From assembly GCF_005434945.1 (NCBI RefSeq), contig NZ_SKCH01000006.1, positions 124,001-188,000 of the forward strand: a stretch of DNA of 64,000 bases, in the 5' to 3' direction. The stretch comes from Prescottella subtropica. Its GTDB lineage: Bacteria > Actinomycetota > Actinomycetes > Mycobacteriales > Mycobacteriaceae. The notes under the pieces were generated by a model. That model made no database searches. It was not told the origin of the DNA and was given only the letters and a program-made list of their open reading frames with translations. Both the position numbers and the translations under genes were made by a program. Below, in pieces: positions 7,887 to 46,116 of the stretch. How positions within the stretch are numbered: the first letter of the stretch is position 1; each line of letters begins with the position of its first letter.

Positions 7887-7892
7887 TCGAAG

Positions 7893-7965
7893 TGGAGCTA
7901 AGGGGACTCGAACCCCTGACCCCCACACTGCCAGTGTGGTGCGCTACCAGCTGCGCCATAGCCCC
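7893..7965 (-). tRNA. tRNA-Ala (GGC)
   Basis: The reverse complement begins GGGGCTATGGCGCAG and ends TAGCTCCA, forming the acceptor stem with an A discriminator. The anticodon loop reads CTGGCAG, giving anticodon GGC for alanine. The T-loop is GGTTCGAGTCC. The 3' CCA is not encoded. A promoter lies upstream and a strong hairpin terminator downstream, so it is a single-gene unit. Confidence 0.97.
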
Positions 7966-13982: not shown

Positions 13983-13985
13983 CGG

Positions 13986-14353
13986 TGGAGCTGCCGGGAA
14001 TCGAACCCGGGTCCTCCGCCGCTTCGTCAGGGCTTCTCCGTGTGCAGTTCGCTAAGCCTCTACTTGGATCTCCCGGTCTCGCGAACAAGCCGGGATGACG
14101 ATCCCAGTCGCTGTTGGATGTCCCGTTCCACTCCGCGACCGAGTGGAACGGTAGAGCCCTCTAGCTGATGCCAGTACCCGACCCGAGGGCGAGATCGGAC
14201 TGACAGACACGCTTCGTTGCTTAGGCAGCGAGAGCGTAGTCGCGCTGATTGGAATCGGCGCTTAATTGGTTGCATCGACGCTTACGGTGGTCTCTTGCCT
14301 GCACCGACACGCTTCCCCTGACTCGACGTACGCAGTCGAAACCGTTCAGCCCC
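13986..14353 (-). ncRNA. ssrA: tmRNA
   Basis: Transfer-messenger RNA rescues stalled ribosomes together with SmpB. The reverse complement begins GGGGCTGAACGGTTTCGACT and ends GGTTCGATTCCCGGCAGCTCCA; the two ends pair as a tRNA-Ala-like acceptor stem. The tag frame at 14259-14221 reads ADSNQRDYALAA followed by TAA. Length is 368 bases. The 3' CCA is only partly encoded (CC, then G). Its protein partner SmpB is encoded at 17889-18362. Confidence 0.97.
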
Positions 14354-40867: not shown

Positions 40868-41752
40868 ATGACGCAGGCACCCGTGAGACGACATTCCCGG
40901 CCCGCACTCGATCCGCGGCTGCCGATCCTGATCCGGCCGAGCGGCCGGGTGCAGATCGGCTGGGATCCGGACACCGCGCTGATCCTCACCCCACCGGACG
41001 GGGTGGACGCCGCCGCACTGGTGTCGGTGCTCGAGTTGCTCGACGGCCGGACGCCGCGGCCGACGATCGTGTGGCGGGCGGTCGAGCGCGGGATCGCGGC
41101 CGCCGACATGTCGACGCTGCTGAGCGAGTTCGCCGAGGCGGGGCTGCTGCGGCCCGAACCGGTCGCACCCGACGACACCCGCACGATCCGGGTCCACGGG
41201 CGCGGCCCGCTCGCCGACGCGATCGCCGCCGGGCTGGTCCGTGCACCGGTGCGGGTGCATCGTTCGACGCACTTCACCACCGACACCGACGTCACTCGGT
41301 GGAACTGTCTGTGCGTCGTCCTCACCGACGATCTCGTCGCCGATCCGCGACTCGTCGACGCCCTGTTCGCGGCGGGTGTCCCGCATCTGCAGGTGCGGCT
41401 GCGGGACGGCCGGGGAATCGTCGGTCCGCTGGTGCTGCCCGGTCGCACGAGTTGCCTGCGGTGCGCGGATCTGACGCGCTGCGCCGTCGACGACGAGTGG
41501 CCGCACGTGGCCGCACAACTGCTGGGCCGGGTCGGCTATGCGGGGCCGGCCGCGGTGCTGGCGACGGCCGCGGTGGCGTTGGGTCAGCTCGAGAAGGTGC
41601 TGTCCGGGGTGGCGCATCCGGCCCCGGCGACCCTGGACGCAACCCTGGAACTCGACCTCGACGAGCACCGTCTCGCGGTCCGTCCGTGGCCCCGCAATCC
41701 ACGGTGTACCTGCTCACGCTTCTTGGACGAACCCGAGATTCTTCGGTCATGA
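40868..41752 (+). CDS. Orphan E1-like/TOMM leader-peptide-binding protein (Rv3196-like)
   Basis: A 294-residue protein resembling the ThiF/E1-like partner of azole-forming (TOMM) enzymes. The N-terminal part is a winged-helix-like peptide-binding region (LIRPSGRVQIGWDPDTALIL). A nucleotide-binding-type strand IRVHGRGPLADAIAAGL follows. The hallmark GPLVLPGRTSCLRCADLTR and C-terminal CTCSRF supply four cysteines for a zinc site. No YcaO or precursor peptide is nearby. ATG 40868 is preferred over an upstream GTG at 40811. Seven bases later the ABC1 kinase begins, as for Rv3196-Rv3197. Confidence 0.72.
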   Translation: MTQAPVRRHSRPALDPRLPILIRPSGRVQIGWDPDTALILTPPDGVDAAALVSVLELLDGRTPRPTIVWRAVERGIAAADMSTLLSEFAEAGLLRPEPVAPDDTRTIRVHGRGPLADAIAAGLVRAPVRVHRSTHFTTDTDVTRWNCLCVVLTDDLVADPRLVDALFAAGVPHLQVRLRDGRGIVGPLVLPGRTSCLRCADLTRCAVDDEWPHVAAQLLGRVGYAGPAAVLATAAVALGQLEKVLSGVAHPAPATLDATLELDLDEHRLAVRPWPRNPRCTCSRFLDEPEILRS

Positions 41753-41759
41753 TGGTCGG

Positions 41760-43106
41760 GTGCCCGATATCCCCCGCAGAAGTACCGCCCGCACCGCCAA
41801 GCTCGCGAGTATTCCGCTGGGTATCGCCGGGCGGGCCGCGATGGGGTTCGGCAGGAAGCTGACCGGCGGTGACCGGGACACGATCGACGCCGAACTGACC
41901 GCGAAGGCCGCCGAACAGTTGTTCACCGTGCTCGGTGAACTCAAGGGCGGTGCGATGAAACTGGGGCAGGCGCTGTCGGTGATGGAGGCCGCGGTCCCCG
42001 CCGAGTTCGCCGAACCGTACCGGGAGGCGCTCACCAAACTGCAGGCCGAGGCGCCGCCGCTGCCCGCGAAGCAGGTGCATCGGGTGCTCGATCAGCAGCT
42101 CGGCACCCGCTGGCGGGAACGGTTCCGCGAGTTCGACGACTCCCCCACCGCGTCGGCCAGTATCGGGCAGGTGCATCGGGCGGTGTGGTCGGACGGCCGT
42201 GAGGTGGCCGTCAAGGTGCAGTATCCGGGTGCCGACGAGGCGCTGCGGGCGGACCTGAAGACGCTGTCCCGGTTCGCCGGCCTGTTCACGTCGATCGTCC
42301 CCGGCACCGACGTCAAACCGGTTCTCGACGAGCTCAGTGCCCGCACCGAGGAGGAACTCGACTACCGGATCGAGGCCGACAACCAGCGGGCGTTCGCGAA
42401 GGTGTTCGACGGCGACCCGAAGTTCGCGGTGCCGCGGGTCGTCGCGAGTTCCCCCAAGGTGGTGGTCACCGAGTGGATGGCGGCGACACCCCTGTCGGCG
42501 ATCGTCACCGGCGGCACCACCGAGCAGCGCAACACGGCGGGCGCCCTGCTCGCCGAGTTCCATTTCGTCTCCCCCGCCACGGTGGGCCTGCTGCACTGCG
42601 ATCCGCATCCGGGCAATTTCATGCTGCTCGGCGACGGCAGGCTCGGCATCATCGATTTCGGCGCCTGTGCACCGATGCCGGACGGGTTTCCGCCGGTGCT
42701 CGGCAGGATGGTCCGGCTCAGCCTCGAGGAACGGTTCGACGAGCTGACCGAGTTGTTGCGCTCAGGCGGTTTCGTGCTGCCCGGTCGCACCGTCACCGAC
42801 GTGGAGATCGCGGACTACCTGCGCCCGTTCACCGACCCCATCCGGACCGAGTCGTTCCACTTCACGCGGGCGTGGCTGCAGAAGGCCGCCGGGACGGCCA
42901 CCGACCTGCAGGGCTCGCATTTCCGGACGGCCCGCGCCCTCAACCTGCCACCCGAATACCTGATGATCTTCCGGGTGCTCCTCGGCTCGGTCGGCATCTG
43001 CGCACAACTCGACGCCGAAGCCCCCTACATGGGGATCCTCAGCACCTGGCTGCCCGGTTTCACCGACGACGGCACCGTGGCCGAATGTCACATCGGTTCG
43101 GTCTGA
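41760..43106 (+). CDS. ABC1/UbiB-family atypical kinase
   Basis: A 448-residue protein of the ADCK/UbiB family. It has the KxGQ motif MKLGQALSVMEA, ASIGQVHRA, the lysine strand VAVKVQYPG, the catalytic LLHCDPHPGNFML and metal-binding IDFGA. Start is GTG 41760. In M. tuberculosis the equivalent is Rv3197, next to whiB7, and has been linked to macrolide tolerance. The end of the gene lies in the left arm of a palindrome, so its last codons are part of a terminator-like structure. Confidence 0.92.
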   Translation: MPDIPRRSTARTAKLASIPLGIAGRAAMGFGRKLTGGDRDTIDAELTAKAAEQLFTVLGELKGGAMKLGQALSVMEAAVPAEFAEPYREALTKLQAEAPPLPAKQVHRVLDQQLGTRWRERFREFDDSPTASASIGQVHRAVWSDGREVAVKVQYPGADEALRADLKTLSRFAGLFTSIVPGTDVKPVLDELSARTEEELDYRIEADNQRAFAKVFDGDPKFAVPRVVASSPKVVVTEWMAATPLSAIVTGGTTEQRNTAGALLAEFHFVSPATVGLLHCDPHPGNFMLLGDGRLGIIDFGACAPMPDGFPPVLGRMVRLSLEERFDELTELLRSGGFVLPGRTVTDVEIADYLRPFTDPIRTESFHFTRAWLQKAAGTATDLQGSHFRTARALNLPPEYLMIFRVLLGSVGICAQLDAEAPYMGILSTWLPGFTDDGTVAECHIGSV

Positions 43107-43131
43107 CTGAACGCGTGTGACATTCGGCCAC
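43077..43131. terminator. Palindrome spanning the end of the ABC1 gene
   Basis: Perfect 16-bp arms GTGGCCGAATGTCACA (43077-43092) and its complement (43116-43131) flank a 23-base loop that contains the ABC1 stop. It sits between the convergent ABC1 and whiB7 genes. Confidence 0.75.
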
Positions 43132-43142
43132 AGTGGTGGGTG

Positions 43143-43487
43143 TCAGGCGCACACCAGTGTCGCGTCCCGGCTCGGGGGCACCGGATGTTTCCGGGGTCTT
43201 CCCCGGGGCCGTTTGCAGGCGATGACGGCCCCCTGGTCGAGGATCTCGCCGCCCCACACACCCCACGGTTCACCGCGGTCGAGGGCGGCTGTGAGGCAGC
43301 GGGTCCGGATCGGGCAGTCGGCGCACAACTGCTTGGCGCGTTCGAGGTCGGCGGGGGTCTCGGCGAACCACAGGTCGGGGTTGTCGCCGGTCCGGCAGGG
43401 CAGTTCCCGGCGTGCCGAGCGGACGGCTCCCAGCCCGTTGGACACGGTGTGGTTCACATTCTGTACTCGGCATGTCGCGGTAGACAC
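43143..43487 (-). CDS. whiB7: WhiB7, antibiotic-responsive Fe-S transcription factor
   Basis: WhiB7 activates intrinsic resistance genes together with the housekeeping sigma factor. The 114-residue protein has Fe-S cysteines 31, 55, 58 and 64, the turn GVWGG (76-80) and the diagnostic AT-hook RGRPRK (95-100). AGAGGAG lies six bases before GTG 43487. It has a leader of about 445 bases with its own promoter, upstream ORF and attenuator hairpin (see those entries). It is flanked by the ABC1 kinase and, further on, uvrD2, as in mycobacteria. Confidence 0.96.
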   Translation of the reverse strand: MSTATCRVQNVNHTVSNGLGAVRSARRELPCRTGDNPDLWFAETPADLERAKQLCADCPIRTRCLTAALDRGEPWGVWGGEILDQGAVIACKRPRGRPRKHPVPPSRDATLVCA

Positions 43488-43582
43488 GTCGTCTCCTCTG
43501 TTTCGTTCTCGGCGGATGCCGGCTGTCGTGGGTTTCACGAACCGCGGGTGATGGCCGGGAGCGATGCACGCTCGAAACACGA

Positions 43583-43615
43583 AGGCCACGGTTCGCTGTG
43601 CGCGATCCGTGGCCT
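43583..43615 (-). promoter_or_regulatory. Attenuator hairpin in the whiB7 leader
   Basis: On the minus strand AGGCCACGG (43615-43607) pairs with CCGTGGCCT (43591-43583), with an inner TCGC/GCGA stem, and is followed by TCGTGTTTCG. It lies 20 bases after the upstream ORF stop and 95 bases before whiB7. It would stop transcription unless ribosome stalling changes leader folding. Confidence 0.75.
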
Positions 43616-43635
43616 GGGGAGGTCGGGCGGAGTGT

Positions 43636-43842
43636 CTACCGAACGACGGTTCGGTGTCGGTTCCGGGCCACGGATGCGCGGGCGGCTGCTGCAACTGCTG
43701 CTGCGCGCGGGCGGGGTGCGTACGGTGCTGCCGCTGCGACACTCGCGGCGGCCCTGTCGGCCGCGGGGAGGGAGGCGCATGCGACTGCGGGCACCGATGC
43801 ACGTGCTGCTGCGTTCACCACAGTTGCGTTCCGATCGTTCAT
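43636..43842 (-). CDS. whiB7 upstream ORF (leader peptide)
   Basis: A 68-codon frame starting at ATG 43842, preceded by a very strong ribosome binding site GGGAGGTGG six bases upstream. The peptide starts MNDRNATVV and is mostly Ala, Arg, Val and Ser, without any domain. Its value is likely regulatory: slow translation in the presence of ribosome-targeting drugs would prevent the downstream hairpin from terminating transcription. Upstream ORFs with this role are known for mycobacterial whiB7. Peptide sequence itself is not conserved in any way I recognise. Confidence 0.72.
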   Translation of the reverse strand: MNDRNATVVNAAARASVPAVACASLPAADRAAASVAAAAPYAPRPRAAAVAAAARASVARNRHRTVVR

Positions 43843-43937
43843 CGTTGCCACCTCCCTTTCATCTCGTCGCCGACAGGACATACCGGCCGGGCCGGCGATC
43901 TAGCACCGCACACGGGTCGCCCCGTGGCATGCGTTCC

Positions 43938-43974
43938 AGGTTATGGGACCCGCCCGGACCGCACAACTTATTTT
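43938..43974 (-). promoter_or_regulatory. whiB7 promoter with WhiB7-type A/T-rich box
   Basis: On the minus strand AAAATAAG (43974-43967) abuts TTGTGC (43966-43961); exactly 17 bases later comes TAACCT (43943-43938). An A/T-rich box just upstream of a weak -35 is where the WhiB7 AT-hook binds, so the gene is probably autoactivated. The predicted start is near 43931. Confidence 0.75.
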
Positions 43975-44058
43975 CTACCTGCGGTTTCGTGCTCCCGACA
44001 CCGGGAAGTCGGTCTCCTGCCACGATCCGTTCAGTCGACGTATTTAGCGTCGCGAATC

Positions 44059-46116
44059 ATGGCAACCTCCCCGAAACGCATATCCGATTTCTCCCGCCGT
44101 CACTTCCTGGGCCTGTCCGCGGGCGCCGCGGGAATAGCCGGTGCCGCAACACTTCTCCCGCCGTCGATGGCTGCCGCCCTGGCCCGGCCGCGGGCGGCCG
44201 GCTCTCTGGACGACGTGGAGCACGTGGTGGTGCTCATGCAGGAGAACCGCTCGTTCGACCACTACTTCGGGACGCTGCGCGGGGTGCGCGGTTTCGCCGA
44301 CAACTCGGCGCTGCCGGGGGTGTTCGAGCAGTCGGGGGTCCGCCCGTTCCGGGTGCGTGACGCCGCGAACCGCGGCGAGCTGTCCGTCGAGTACATCGCG
44401 TCGCTGCCGCACGGCTGGCCGGACGGGCAGCAGGCGCTGAACGGCGGCCGGTGCGACGGCTGGATCGGGGCGAAGGGGCAGGCCACGATGGCGGCCTACG
44501 ACCGTGTCGACATTCCGTTCCAGTTCGCGCTGGCCGAGACGTTCACGCTGTGCGACGGCTACTTCAGCTCGTGCCCCACCTCCACCAGCCCCAACCGCAA
44601 CTACCTGTTCTCCGGTACGACCGGCGACGAGCCCGGCGGCGGGCGCGCCGTGGGCAACGCCGCCTACGACTCGAACCATCCCGGCTACGGCTGGCGGACC
44701 TACGCCGAAGATCTGCAGGACGCGGGCGTCGACTGGCGCGTCTACCAGGAGTGGGACAACTACACCGACAACAATCTCGACTTCTTCCGCAGCTTCCGCG
44801 ACATCGGGCGCAGCGCGGTGGCGACCGCCGGGGAGATCGGTGGAGACGTCAACGGATTCTTCGAGGGGCTGCTCTCGGGTCTGGGCGCCGGGCCCGCCGA
44901 CGCCGAGCGGGTGCGCCGGGCGGACGCGGTCCACGCGGCCGCGGCGGCTCTGCCGGCCGCGCAGGCCGAGCTCTACGACCGGGCGCTGCACCGCGGCGAG
45001 CCCGGTTCGCTGGCGCGGCGGTTCCGCGCGGACGTCGAGGCCGGGTCGCTGCCCGCGGTGTCCTGGATCGTCACGACGGCCGCCGACTCCGAGCATCCGT
45101 CGGCGTCGTCGCCGATCCAGTCGTCCACCATCACCTACCAGCTGCTCGACGCGCTCGCGTCGTCGCCGGAGGTGTGGCGGAAGACGGTGGTGCTCATCAT
45201 GTTCGACGAGTTCGACGGCTACTTCGACCACGTGGTGCCGCCGCTGCCGCCGACCGGGGAGCCCGGCGAGTGGAACGGCGTCCTGCCGATGGGCCTGGGG
45301 TTCCGGGTGCCGCTCACGGTGATCTCCCCGTGGTCGGCGGGTGGGCGGGTGTGCTCCGAGGTGTTCGACCACACGTCCGTCGTCCGGTTCCTCGAGCAGG
45401 TGACCGGCGTGCCGTGCGGCAACATCTCCGATTGGCGGCGACGGGTGTGCGGGGATCTCACGGCCACCCTGGACTTCTCTGCGTCGACGGGCCTGACGCT
45501 GCCCGCACAGCCGGGACCGGTGCCGGTGTTGGAGAAGCGATGGAAGGCCGAGCCGGGCGGCGAGGTCCCGGTCCAGGAGACCGGCACGGCCACCGCCCTG
45601 CCCACGCCGTACCGGCTCGCCGCGGACGTCGTCGACGGCGCGGTGCATCTGGTCAACGAGGGATCGTCCGCGGCGGTGTTCGGGGTCTTCCACGGGGCCG
45701 AGGTGGCGCATCGGACGGTGACCGGACGCGAGATCGTGCCGCTGCCGGCGGGCACCGAACGGGTCGTCGTCACCGGCCCCGACCGGTTCCTCCGCGATCT
45801 GCGGTTCCCGGCGGGCGGGTCGAGCGCCCGTGTGCAGCTCGATCACCGGGCCGGGACGATCACCGTGGACGGGCGTGATCTGACGACGACGTCGGTGCGC
45901 GACGGCTGGTACGAGGTCACCGTCCCCGGGCCGGTCGGCGGCCAGTACTACACGGGCCGGCTCGAGAACGGGAAGCCCACACGCACCAGCCCGTTCCGCA
46001 GCGACGGGCAGACACCGGAACCGGCACCGGGGACCGGCTCGACGGTCACCGGATCGGTCGACACCGGCTCGGTCGGATTCGGTTCACTCGGATCCGGTTC
46101 GCTCGCCGGCGCATAG
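44059..46116 (+). CDS. Tat-exported phospholipase C (phosphocholine-preferring family)
   Basis: A 685-residue exported enzyme. The start shows a twin-arginine signal SRRHFLGLSAGAAG (Arg13-Arg14). The catalytic phosphoesterase domain begins VVLMQENRSFDHYFGTLRG, and contains SSCPTSTSPNRNYLFSGT and IMFDEFDGYFDHVVPP, typical of PlcA/PlcC-type enzymes. Two small C-terminal beta domains follow (around 510-655), as in the Pseudomonas and mycobacterial proteins. The last 25 residues are Gly/Ser/Thr/Val repeats, an unusual tail. The ATG at 44059 is well placed after the divergent whiB7 promoter. Confidence 0.92.
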   Translation: MATSPKRISDFSRRHFLGLSAGAAGIAGAATLLPPSMAAALARPRAAGSLDDVEHVVVLMQENRSFDHYFGTLRGVRGFADNSALPGVFEQSGVRPFRVRDAANRGELSVEYIASLPHGWPDGQQALNGGRCDGWIGAKGQATMAAYDRVDIPFQFALAETFTLCDGYFSSCPTSTSPNRNYLFSGTTGDEPGGGRAVGNAAYDSNHPGYGWRTYAEDLQDAGVDWRVYQEWDNYTDNNLDFFRSFRDIGRSAVATAGEIGGDVNGFFEGLLSGLGAGPADAERVRRADAVHAAAAALPAAQAELYDRALHRGEPGSLARRFRADVEAGSLPAVSWIVTTAADSEHPSASSPIQSSTITYQLLDALASSPEVWRKTVVLIMFDEFDGYFDHVVPPLPPTGEPGEWNGVLPMGLGFRVPLTVISPWSAGGRVCSEVFDHTSVVRFLEQVTGVPCGNISDWRRRVCGDLTATLDFSASTGLTLPAQPGPVPVLEKRWKAEPGGEVPVQETGTATALPTPYRLAADVVDGAVHLVNEGSSAAVFGVFHGAEVAHRTVTGREIVPLPAGTERVVVTGPDRFLRDLRFPAGGSSARVQLDHRAGTITVDGRDLTTTSVRDGWYEVTVPGPVGGQYYTGRLENGKPTRTSPFRSDGQTPEPAPGTGSTVTGSVDTGSVGFGSLGSGSLAGA

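Follow-up and report, generated by a model that had tools for sequence, protein, structure and literature searches.

We analysed a 64,000-nucleotide stretch of the Prescottella subtropica genome (contig NZ_SKCH01000006.1, positions 124,001 to 188,000 of the forward strand; hereafter the window). On its minus strand the sequence reads as a whiB7 leader, with a WhiB7-box promoter, a 68-codon upstream ORF (uORF) and a terminator, followed by whiB7 itself (Table 1). The original prediction had listed an A/T-rich box adjoining a -35 element, a TAACCT -10 element at an exact spacing of 17 nt, a 68-codon upstream ORF with a very strong ribosome binding site and a GC-rich hairpin with a T-rich trail ahead of whiB7, and by direct reading we located every one of these parts on that strand. 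Two parts that it had missed were also read from the sequence: a putative antiterminator strand inside the uORF (segment A), which would pair with the 5' arm of the terminator (segment B; pairing A:B), and a predicted hairpin, H2, nested in the antiterminator loop.

Table 1. Features of the whiB7 leader and gene, with positions in the window.
Feature	Position	Strand	Basis
A/T box GAAAATAA beside the -35 element, likely WhiB7 AT-hook site	43968..43975	-	Sequence reading
-35 element TTGTGC	43961..43966	-	Sequence reading; genus leaders
-10 element TAACCT, 17-nt spacer after the -35 element	43938..43943	-	Sequence reading; genus leaders
Shine-Dalgarno sequence (SD) of the uORF, AAAGGGAGG	43851..43859	-	Anti-SD duplex energy -11.0
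uORF, ATG at 43842 to TAG at 43636, 68 codons, 27 Ala (17 GCA), 10 Arg	43636..43842	-	ORF call, codon count
Segment A, putative antiterminator strand ATCCGTGGCC within the uORF, ending 27 nt before the stop	43666..43675	-	Complement of B
Predicted hairpin H2 (ACCGAAC-CGTC-GTTCGGT), spanning the final uORF codons and base 1 of the stop	43638..43655	-	Covariation
Segment B, terminator 5' arm AGGCCACGGATCGC, common to antiterminator and terminator	43602..43615	-	Folding, alignment
Segment C, terminator 3' arm GCGAACCGTGGCCT	43583..43596	-	Folding, alignment
Terminator tail TCGTGTTTCGAG, moderately T-rich (5 T in 12)	43571..43582	-	Sequence reading; relatives' tails
whiB7, GTG start at 43487, 114 aa	43143..43487	-	Pfam Whib 3.1e-15; PDB matches

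The downstream protein is a WhiB7 orthologue with the Fe-S cysteines, EPW loop and AT-hook expected behind such a leader: its best PDB matches are WhiB7 (7kif, 7kim and 7kuf; E 2.7e-33) and it contains the motifs EPWGVWGGE and RGRPRK, while a search of the product against NCBIfam returned no match. A divergent gene of the phosphoesterase/phospholipase C type (44059-46116, plus strand; PF04185, E 2.1e-96), with a Tat-like N-terminus by eye, has its ATG about 85 bp from the A/T box, and a convergent ABC1 atypical-kinase gene (41538-43106, plus strand, start codon as called; PF03109, E 6.6e-57) flanks whiB7 on the other side; a gene of the latter type presumably also neighbours whiB7 in M. tuberculosis. 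Elsewhere in the window lie a tmRNA (tag ADSNQRDYALAA; 13983-14353, minus strand) and a tRNA-Ala(GGC) gene (7892-7965, minus strand), the only such gene found in the genome.

Judged by its sequence, the promoter is of the SigA type, and the A/T-rich box stands beside the -35 element in all 14 leaders of the window's genus, as expected of a whiB7 leader. Passages of PMC3905903 describe WhiB7 as activating its own promoter through this box. In the 4.4-Mb genome, the pattern AAAATNNNTTG-N18..21-TANNNT matched once, at the whiB7 promoter, as did the A/T box plus -35 pattern alone; a relaxed promoter pattern likewise gave one match, and so did its reversed control. None of the three patterns revealed a further WhiB7 site in the genome, each matching the whiB7 promoter only, and the WhiB7 regulon can therefore not be read from such sites. 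Simple promoter and terminator scans over 42900-44600 returned none of either and missed the WhiB7-box promoter too, which fits the strictness of their rules (9 of 12 promoter bases; a stem adjoining a loop of 3-8 nt; at least 5 T in 8). Searching the leader against Rfam gave no match at the gathering score, nor at E up to 1.

The promoter, the strong-SD uORF and the terminator are kept in 14 of 14 genus genomes examined, with 20 nt between the uORF stop and the hairpin in the window and 18-21 nt across the genus leaders, so that the strong-SD uORF ends just upstream of the terminator as it does in whiB7 leaders. Among 116 Mycobacteriales and outgroup loci examined, 112 have both promoter and uORF (95 distinct uORFs), and a WhiB7 match at E <= 1e-25 was obtained in 100 of 121 genomes of the family. 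We aligned 47 leaders, a subset chosen for a recognisable A out of 88 distinct core regions. The alignment leaves out 25 Mycobacteriaceae and 10 Nocardia leaders, L115, L117, the near-duplicate L064, and L034, L042 and L046, in which A is absent or atypical. A covariance model built from the 47 leaders, 14 genus leaders among them, found one strong site in each genus genome (14/14; E 3e-18 to 7e-16), the remaining matches in the genus having E >= 0.06 and often representing that hairpin read on the opposite strand. Across the class, the model matched in 103 of 197 genomes at E <= 0.1. A WhiB7-like ORF lies downstream in 29 of the best 30 class loci, the window's own included (28 by a quick motif scan, one more when both strands were scanned), and L215 is the one locus without it.

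We also observed a second WhiB7-like gene (57-73% identity) in 8 of the 14 genus genomes (L015-L022, L071), with no WhiB7-box promoter within 900 nt by the pattern used; in none of the genus genomes did the leader model find a second strong site. A second WhiB7-like copy is absent from the window's own genome, where the next best protein is 36% identical.

Of the hairpin with a T-rich trail in the original prediction, the hairpin held up (fold energy z = -4.3 against 200 shuffles, one of which was equally good), and the tail proved only moderately T-rich. Arms B and C carry one A.A mismatch. In the alignment B:C is paired in 95.7% of cells with an invariant core, and two of its pairs show changes on both sides against 1.5 in shuffles (268 of 500 reach it), which is not above chance. 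RNAalifold run alone on the aligned leaders recovered the terminator and no other element. The position of this putative terminator between uORF and whiB7, given by structure and with a moderate tail, is that seen in whiB7 leaders.

Segment A (ATCCGTGGCC) is exactly complementary to GGCCACGGAT in the 5' arm of the terminator. A and C thus require one and the same partner, B, which can pair either with A (antiterminator) or with C (terminator). Over the representatives of 41 clusters (42 less L099, in which B was not recognisable), the A:B match summed to 290 nt, against a mean of 219.8 (sd 7.2) and a maximum of 241 in 1,000 synonymous-codon shuffles. A match of at least 7 nt occurs in 30 of these clusters and is lacking in 11, including R. 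rhodnii (L034/L074) and L042. The 41 clusters are not independent tests because of their common ancestry, and the strength of the result comes from the relatives; taken alone, the window gave a shuffle p of 0.036. In the 47 chosen leaders A:B is paired in 93.3% of cells, the outer pair being GC in 27, AU in 15 and gapped in 5, and the second pair, U-A, being kept in 47/47 though in the terminator the same base of B, an A, stands opposite another A. For A:B and H2 together, cells changed on both sides numbered 65 against 24.2 in shuffles and the covariation score was 0.254 against 0.142 (0 of 500 shuffles reached either value); the count of pairs changed on both sides, 6 against 4.9, was reached by 110 of 500 shuffles and is not above chance. 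An antiterminator overlapping both uORF and terminator, assigned here by sequence and covariation and not by probing, is described, along with the uORF and terminator themselves, as typical of actinobacterial whiB7 in passages of PMC10727445 and likewise in PMC11550727, PMC4128351, PMC13393426 and PMC9618640.

The Nocardia A strand is GCGACCGTG in 9 of 10 aligned leaders (GCGATCGTG in L129) and, by eye, pairs with B around one bulged A. Their whiB7 uORFs run to 103-125 codons (L108, L111, L112, L116, L118, L121, L123, L125, L129-L132), and an H2-like hairpin along with the bulged A:B is visible by eye in Nocardia leaders. In 7 of 25 Mycobacteriaceae loci (L073, L076, L080, L084, L087, L089 and L096, all Mycobacterium) an A:B match of 7 nt close to the stop was not found and the terminator core is kept; six of the seven were inspected in alignment. 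A class-wide antiterminator sought by exact match was not convincing and was rejected: in 58 leaders, mostly from outside Nocardiaceae, the matches summed to 389 against a null mean of 363, within the maximum of 391 in 300 shuffles. This set was drawn from 69 loci, the best 30 covariance-model loci less the window's own plus 40 hand-chosen next matches, of which 11 without a WhiB7 motif, a terminator core or a good-SD uORF were dropped. In L193-L261 (other Actinomycetia), CCTGGAG or CTCGAGG is present at many uORF ends and is complementary to bases immediately upstream of the terminator core. The sequences suggest that the antiterminator register is shifted between orders.

Within H2, 5 of the 7 pairs show changes on both sides in the 47 chosen leaders. 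Over 32 Nocardiaceae clusters the final 24 nt of the uORF form a longest stem of 4.9 bp on average, against 3.3 bp in shuffles (maximum 3.7 of 100), and a control stretch gave 3.9 against 3.6 (maximum 4.0). H2 is nested in A:B and shares no strand with it, an arrangement other than that of the 1:2 pause hairpin of trp-type attenuators, which has a strand in common with the 2:3 antiterminator. H2 may serve to bring A closer to B or to pause the polymerase.

These parts make it highly probable, at roughly 0.87, that the locus is a transcription attenuator controlled by ribosome position and driving an autoactivating whiB7 gene. Polymerase would start about 7 nt after TAACCT, and a ribosome would then load onto the uORF. 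With brisk translation the ribosome would be on or past A as B emerges, A:B would not form, B would pair with C and transcription would stop before whiB7. A ribosome stalled or slowed in the alanine-rich stretch, by a drug or by scarce charged tRNA-Ala, would leave A bare; H2 would fold and draw A near B, A:B would form first, and the polymerase would read through. WhiB7, acting with SigA at the A/T box, would then raise its own promoter. The claim of leader-ORF control in the original prediction gains support from the WhiB7 protein downstream, from the conserved promoter and uORF, and from A:B and H2, which make such control mechanistically readable; for this organism we infer the stalling, the readthrough, the autoactivation and the response to drugs or alanine, and the caution of the original prediction on this point still applies. 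Ribosome-controlled attenuation is stated for whiB7/wblC in passages of PMC11550727, PMC10727445, PMC13393426 and PMC9618640.

Folding with RNAfold under a ribosome mask gave, once B was out, an A:B probability of 1.00 with the ribosome at codons 10-50, 0.75 with it at codon 52 and 0.00 with it at codons 55-68. Once C was out, equilibrium favoured the terminator in each of the ten masked cases, and the full unmasked leader preferred A:B (0.90). These opposite preferences mean that the switch must be read out kinetically, that the model lacks robustness and that the folding energies are only suggestive.

Alanine accounts for 27 of the 68 uORF residues (40%), against 13% in the mechanically called ORFs of the window, and 25 of the 27 Ala codons (codons 6-54) precede A, clustered as control codons are in trp-type attenuators. 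GCA makes up 17 of the 27, against 6.6% in the called ORFs and 2 of 22 in the window's own control. In the window's genus (three related clusters), 41 of 69 in-frame Ala codons are GCA, compared with 11 of 73 at out-of-frame or non-coding positions (p 4e-8). Repeat slippage alone is insufficient to explain this because isolated Ala codons are GCA-rich too (in the genus, the GCA share is 0.73 for isolated codons and 0.53 for those in runs; the other family clusters have 0.33 and 0.41). Family-wide, GCA accounts for 239 of 619 in-frame Ala codons (38.6%) against 7.3% in flanking ORFs, and for 32% of GCN in the non-coding leader DNA of these loci; as this control is nearly as GCA-rich, we rejected a family-wide enrichment and keep the claim for the window's genus only. 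The uORFs of Mycobacteriaceae are not GCA-rich (7/114).

GCA is decoded by tRNA-Ala(UGC), and among the 52 tRNAs typed there is one gene each for tRNA-Ala(UGC), (CGC) and (GGC). The uORF may sense general translation failure only, its alanine richness and GCA codons being incidental, a reading to which we give somewhat less than even odds: the 32% GCA of non-coding leader DNA and the ordinary codon choice of Mycobacteriaceae speak for it, as does the broad range of ribosome drugs that WblC/WhiB7 answers according to passages of PMC10727445, whereas the 40% alanine of the uORF and the in-frame GCA excess of the genus speak against it, as does the reported induction of whiB7 by, and its part in the response to, alanine starvation in mycobacteria (Poulton 2024, as reported in papers citing it). 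Tentatively, and with the odds clearly against it, the whiB7 leader of the Prescottella group could be tuned to a single tRNA, such that a stretch of rare GCA codons, decoded by a single-copy tRNA-Ala(UGC), senses alanine charging as well as ribosome drugs, H2 brings A to B or times the polymerase, and Mycobacteriaceae keep the alanine and not the codon choice. That attenuator leaders use codons that are rare or sensitive to starvation is an established idea (passages of PMC1183508).

An alternative in-frame ATG further upstream would give an ORF of 81 aa, and the strong SD fits the 68-codon start, which we prefer. Selection on the peptide is mild and purifying (dN/dS has a median of 0.49 across the 91 pairs among the 14 genus uORFs), and its N-terminus is MN(D/G)WN in 11 of the 14 (MNDRN in the window). 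An inner block like SRGVLALQGTG recurs in many Nocardia whiB7 uORFs and hints at selection at the peptide level. In erm leaders, drug-induced ribosome arrest takes place upstream of a resistance gene, and these signs of peptide conservation would suit a uORF that is likewise a nascent-peptide arrest sequence, in which drug and specific peptide together stall the ribosome and the Ala codons as such are irrelevant. We consider this improbable: uORF length ranges from 36 to 137 codons over 112 leaders, the genus alignment has many gaps in the middle of a low-complexity, variable peptide, and where the C-terminus is conserved, at -SV- and the final residues, it overlaps A and H2, which lets RNA pairing account for the conservation. 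Reading the uORF sequences by eye showed no family-wide arrest motif. It is very improbable that the uORF, for all its conservation and very strong SD, is a functional small protein ahead of an ordinary terminator and a whiB7 with its own nearer promoter, since its variable, low-complexity product has no Pfam or NCBIfam match, its 3' end covaries as RNA, and the simple scan of 42900-44600 (which missed the WhiB7-box promoter too) found no promoter.

Under the attenuator reading, the whiB7 leader design is intact in the window's genus and, with exceptions, through Nocardiaceae, its competing RNA strands can be named, and a prediction at the codon level follows, namely that the GCA codons slow the ribosome. 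As whiB7 sets intrinsic drug tolerance in actinobacteria, what the leader senses matters for reading the drug response. Among the matches listed for open-licence papers, no title was evidently on the whiB7 leader of Nocardiaceae; the leader would be a known type of switch and its codon detail possibly new.

The closest known system is the whiB7/wblC attenuator of Mycobacterium and Streptomyces (Lee 2022; Burian & Thompson 2018; Dinan 2014), which, in passages of PMC4128351, PMC10727445 and PMC3905903, likewise has an A/T-box promoter, a uORF after an SD, a terminator at the uORF 3' end and an overlapping antiterminator. The uORF of the window differs from these in sequence and length. Its A ends 27 nt before the stop, whereas in the 25 Mycobacteriaceae loci the distance is 14 nt in 12, 15 nt in 1 and 26-27 nt in 5, with no near match in 7, and its Ala codons are GCA-rich whereas theirs are not. 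Leaders of the erm arrest type, mentioned in passages of PMC4128351, also place a translation-sensing uORF ahead of a resistance-related gene; here, control would act at transcription termination, and the uORFs read by eye share no family-wide arrest motif. The trp, his, thr and leu attenuators resemble the window's leader in that one amino acid is abundant in the reading frame, antiterminator and terminator exclude each other, and the codons are biased (passages of PMC1183508, which also give 14 residues for the trp leader peptide, against 68 codons here). They differ from it in that H2 sits within A:B without competing for its strand, and in that the controlled gene, whiB7, is a regulator and not a gene for biosynthesis of the sensed amino acid.
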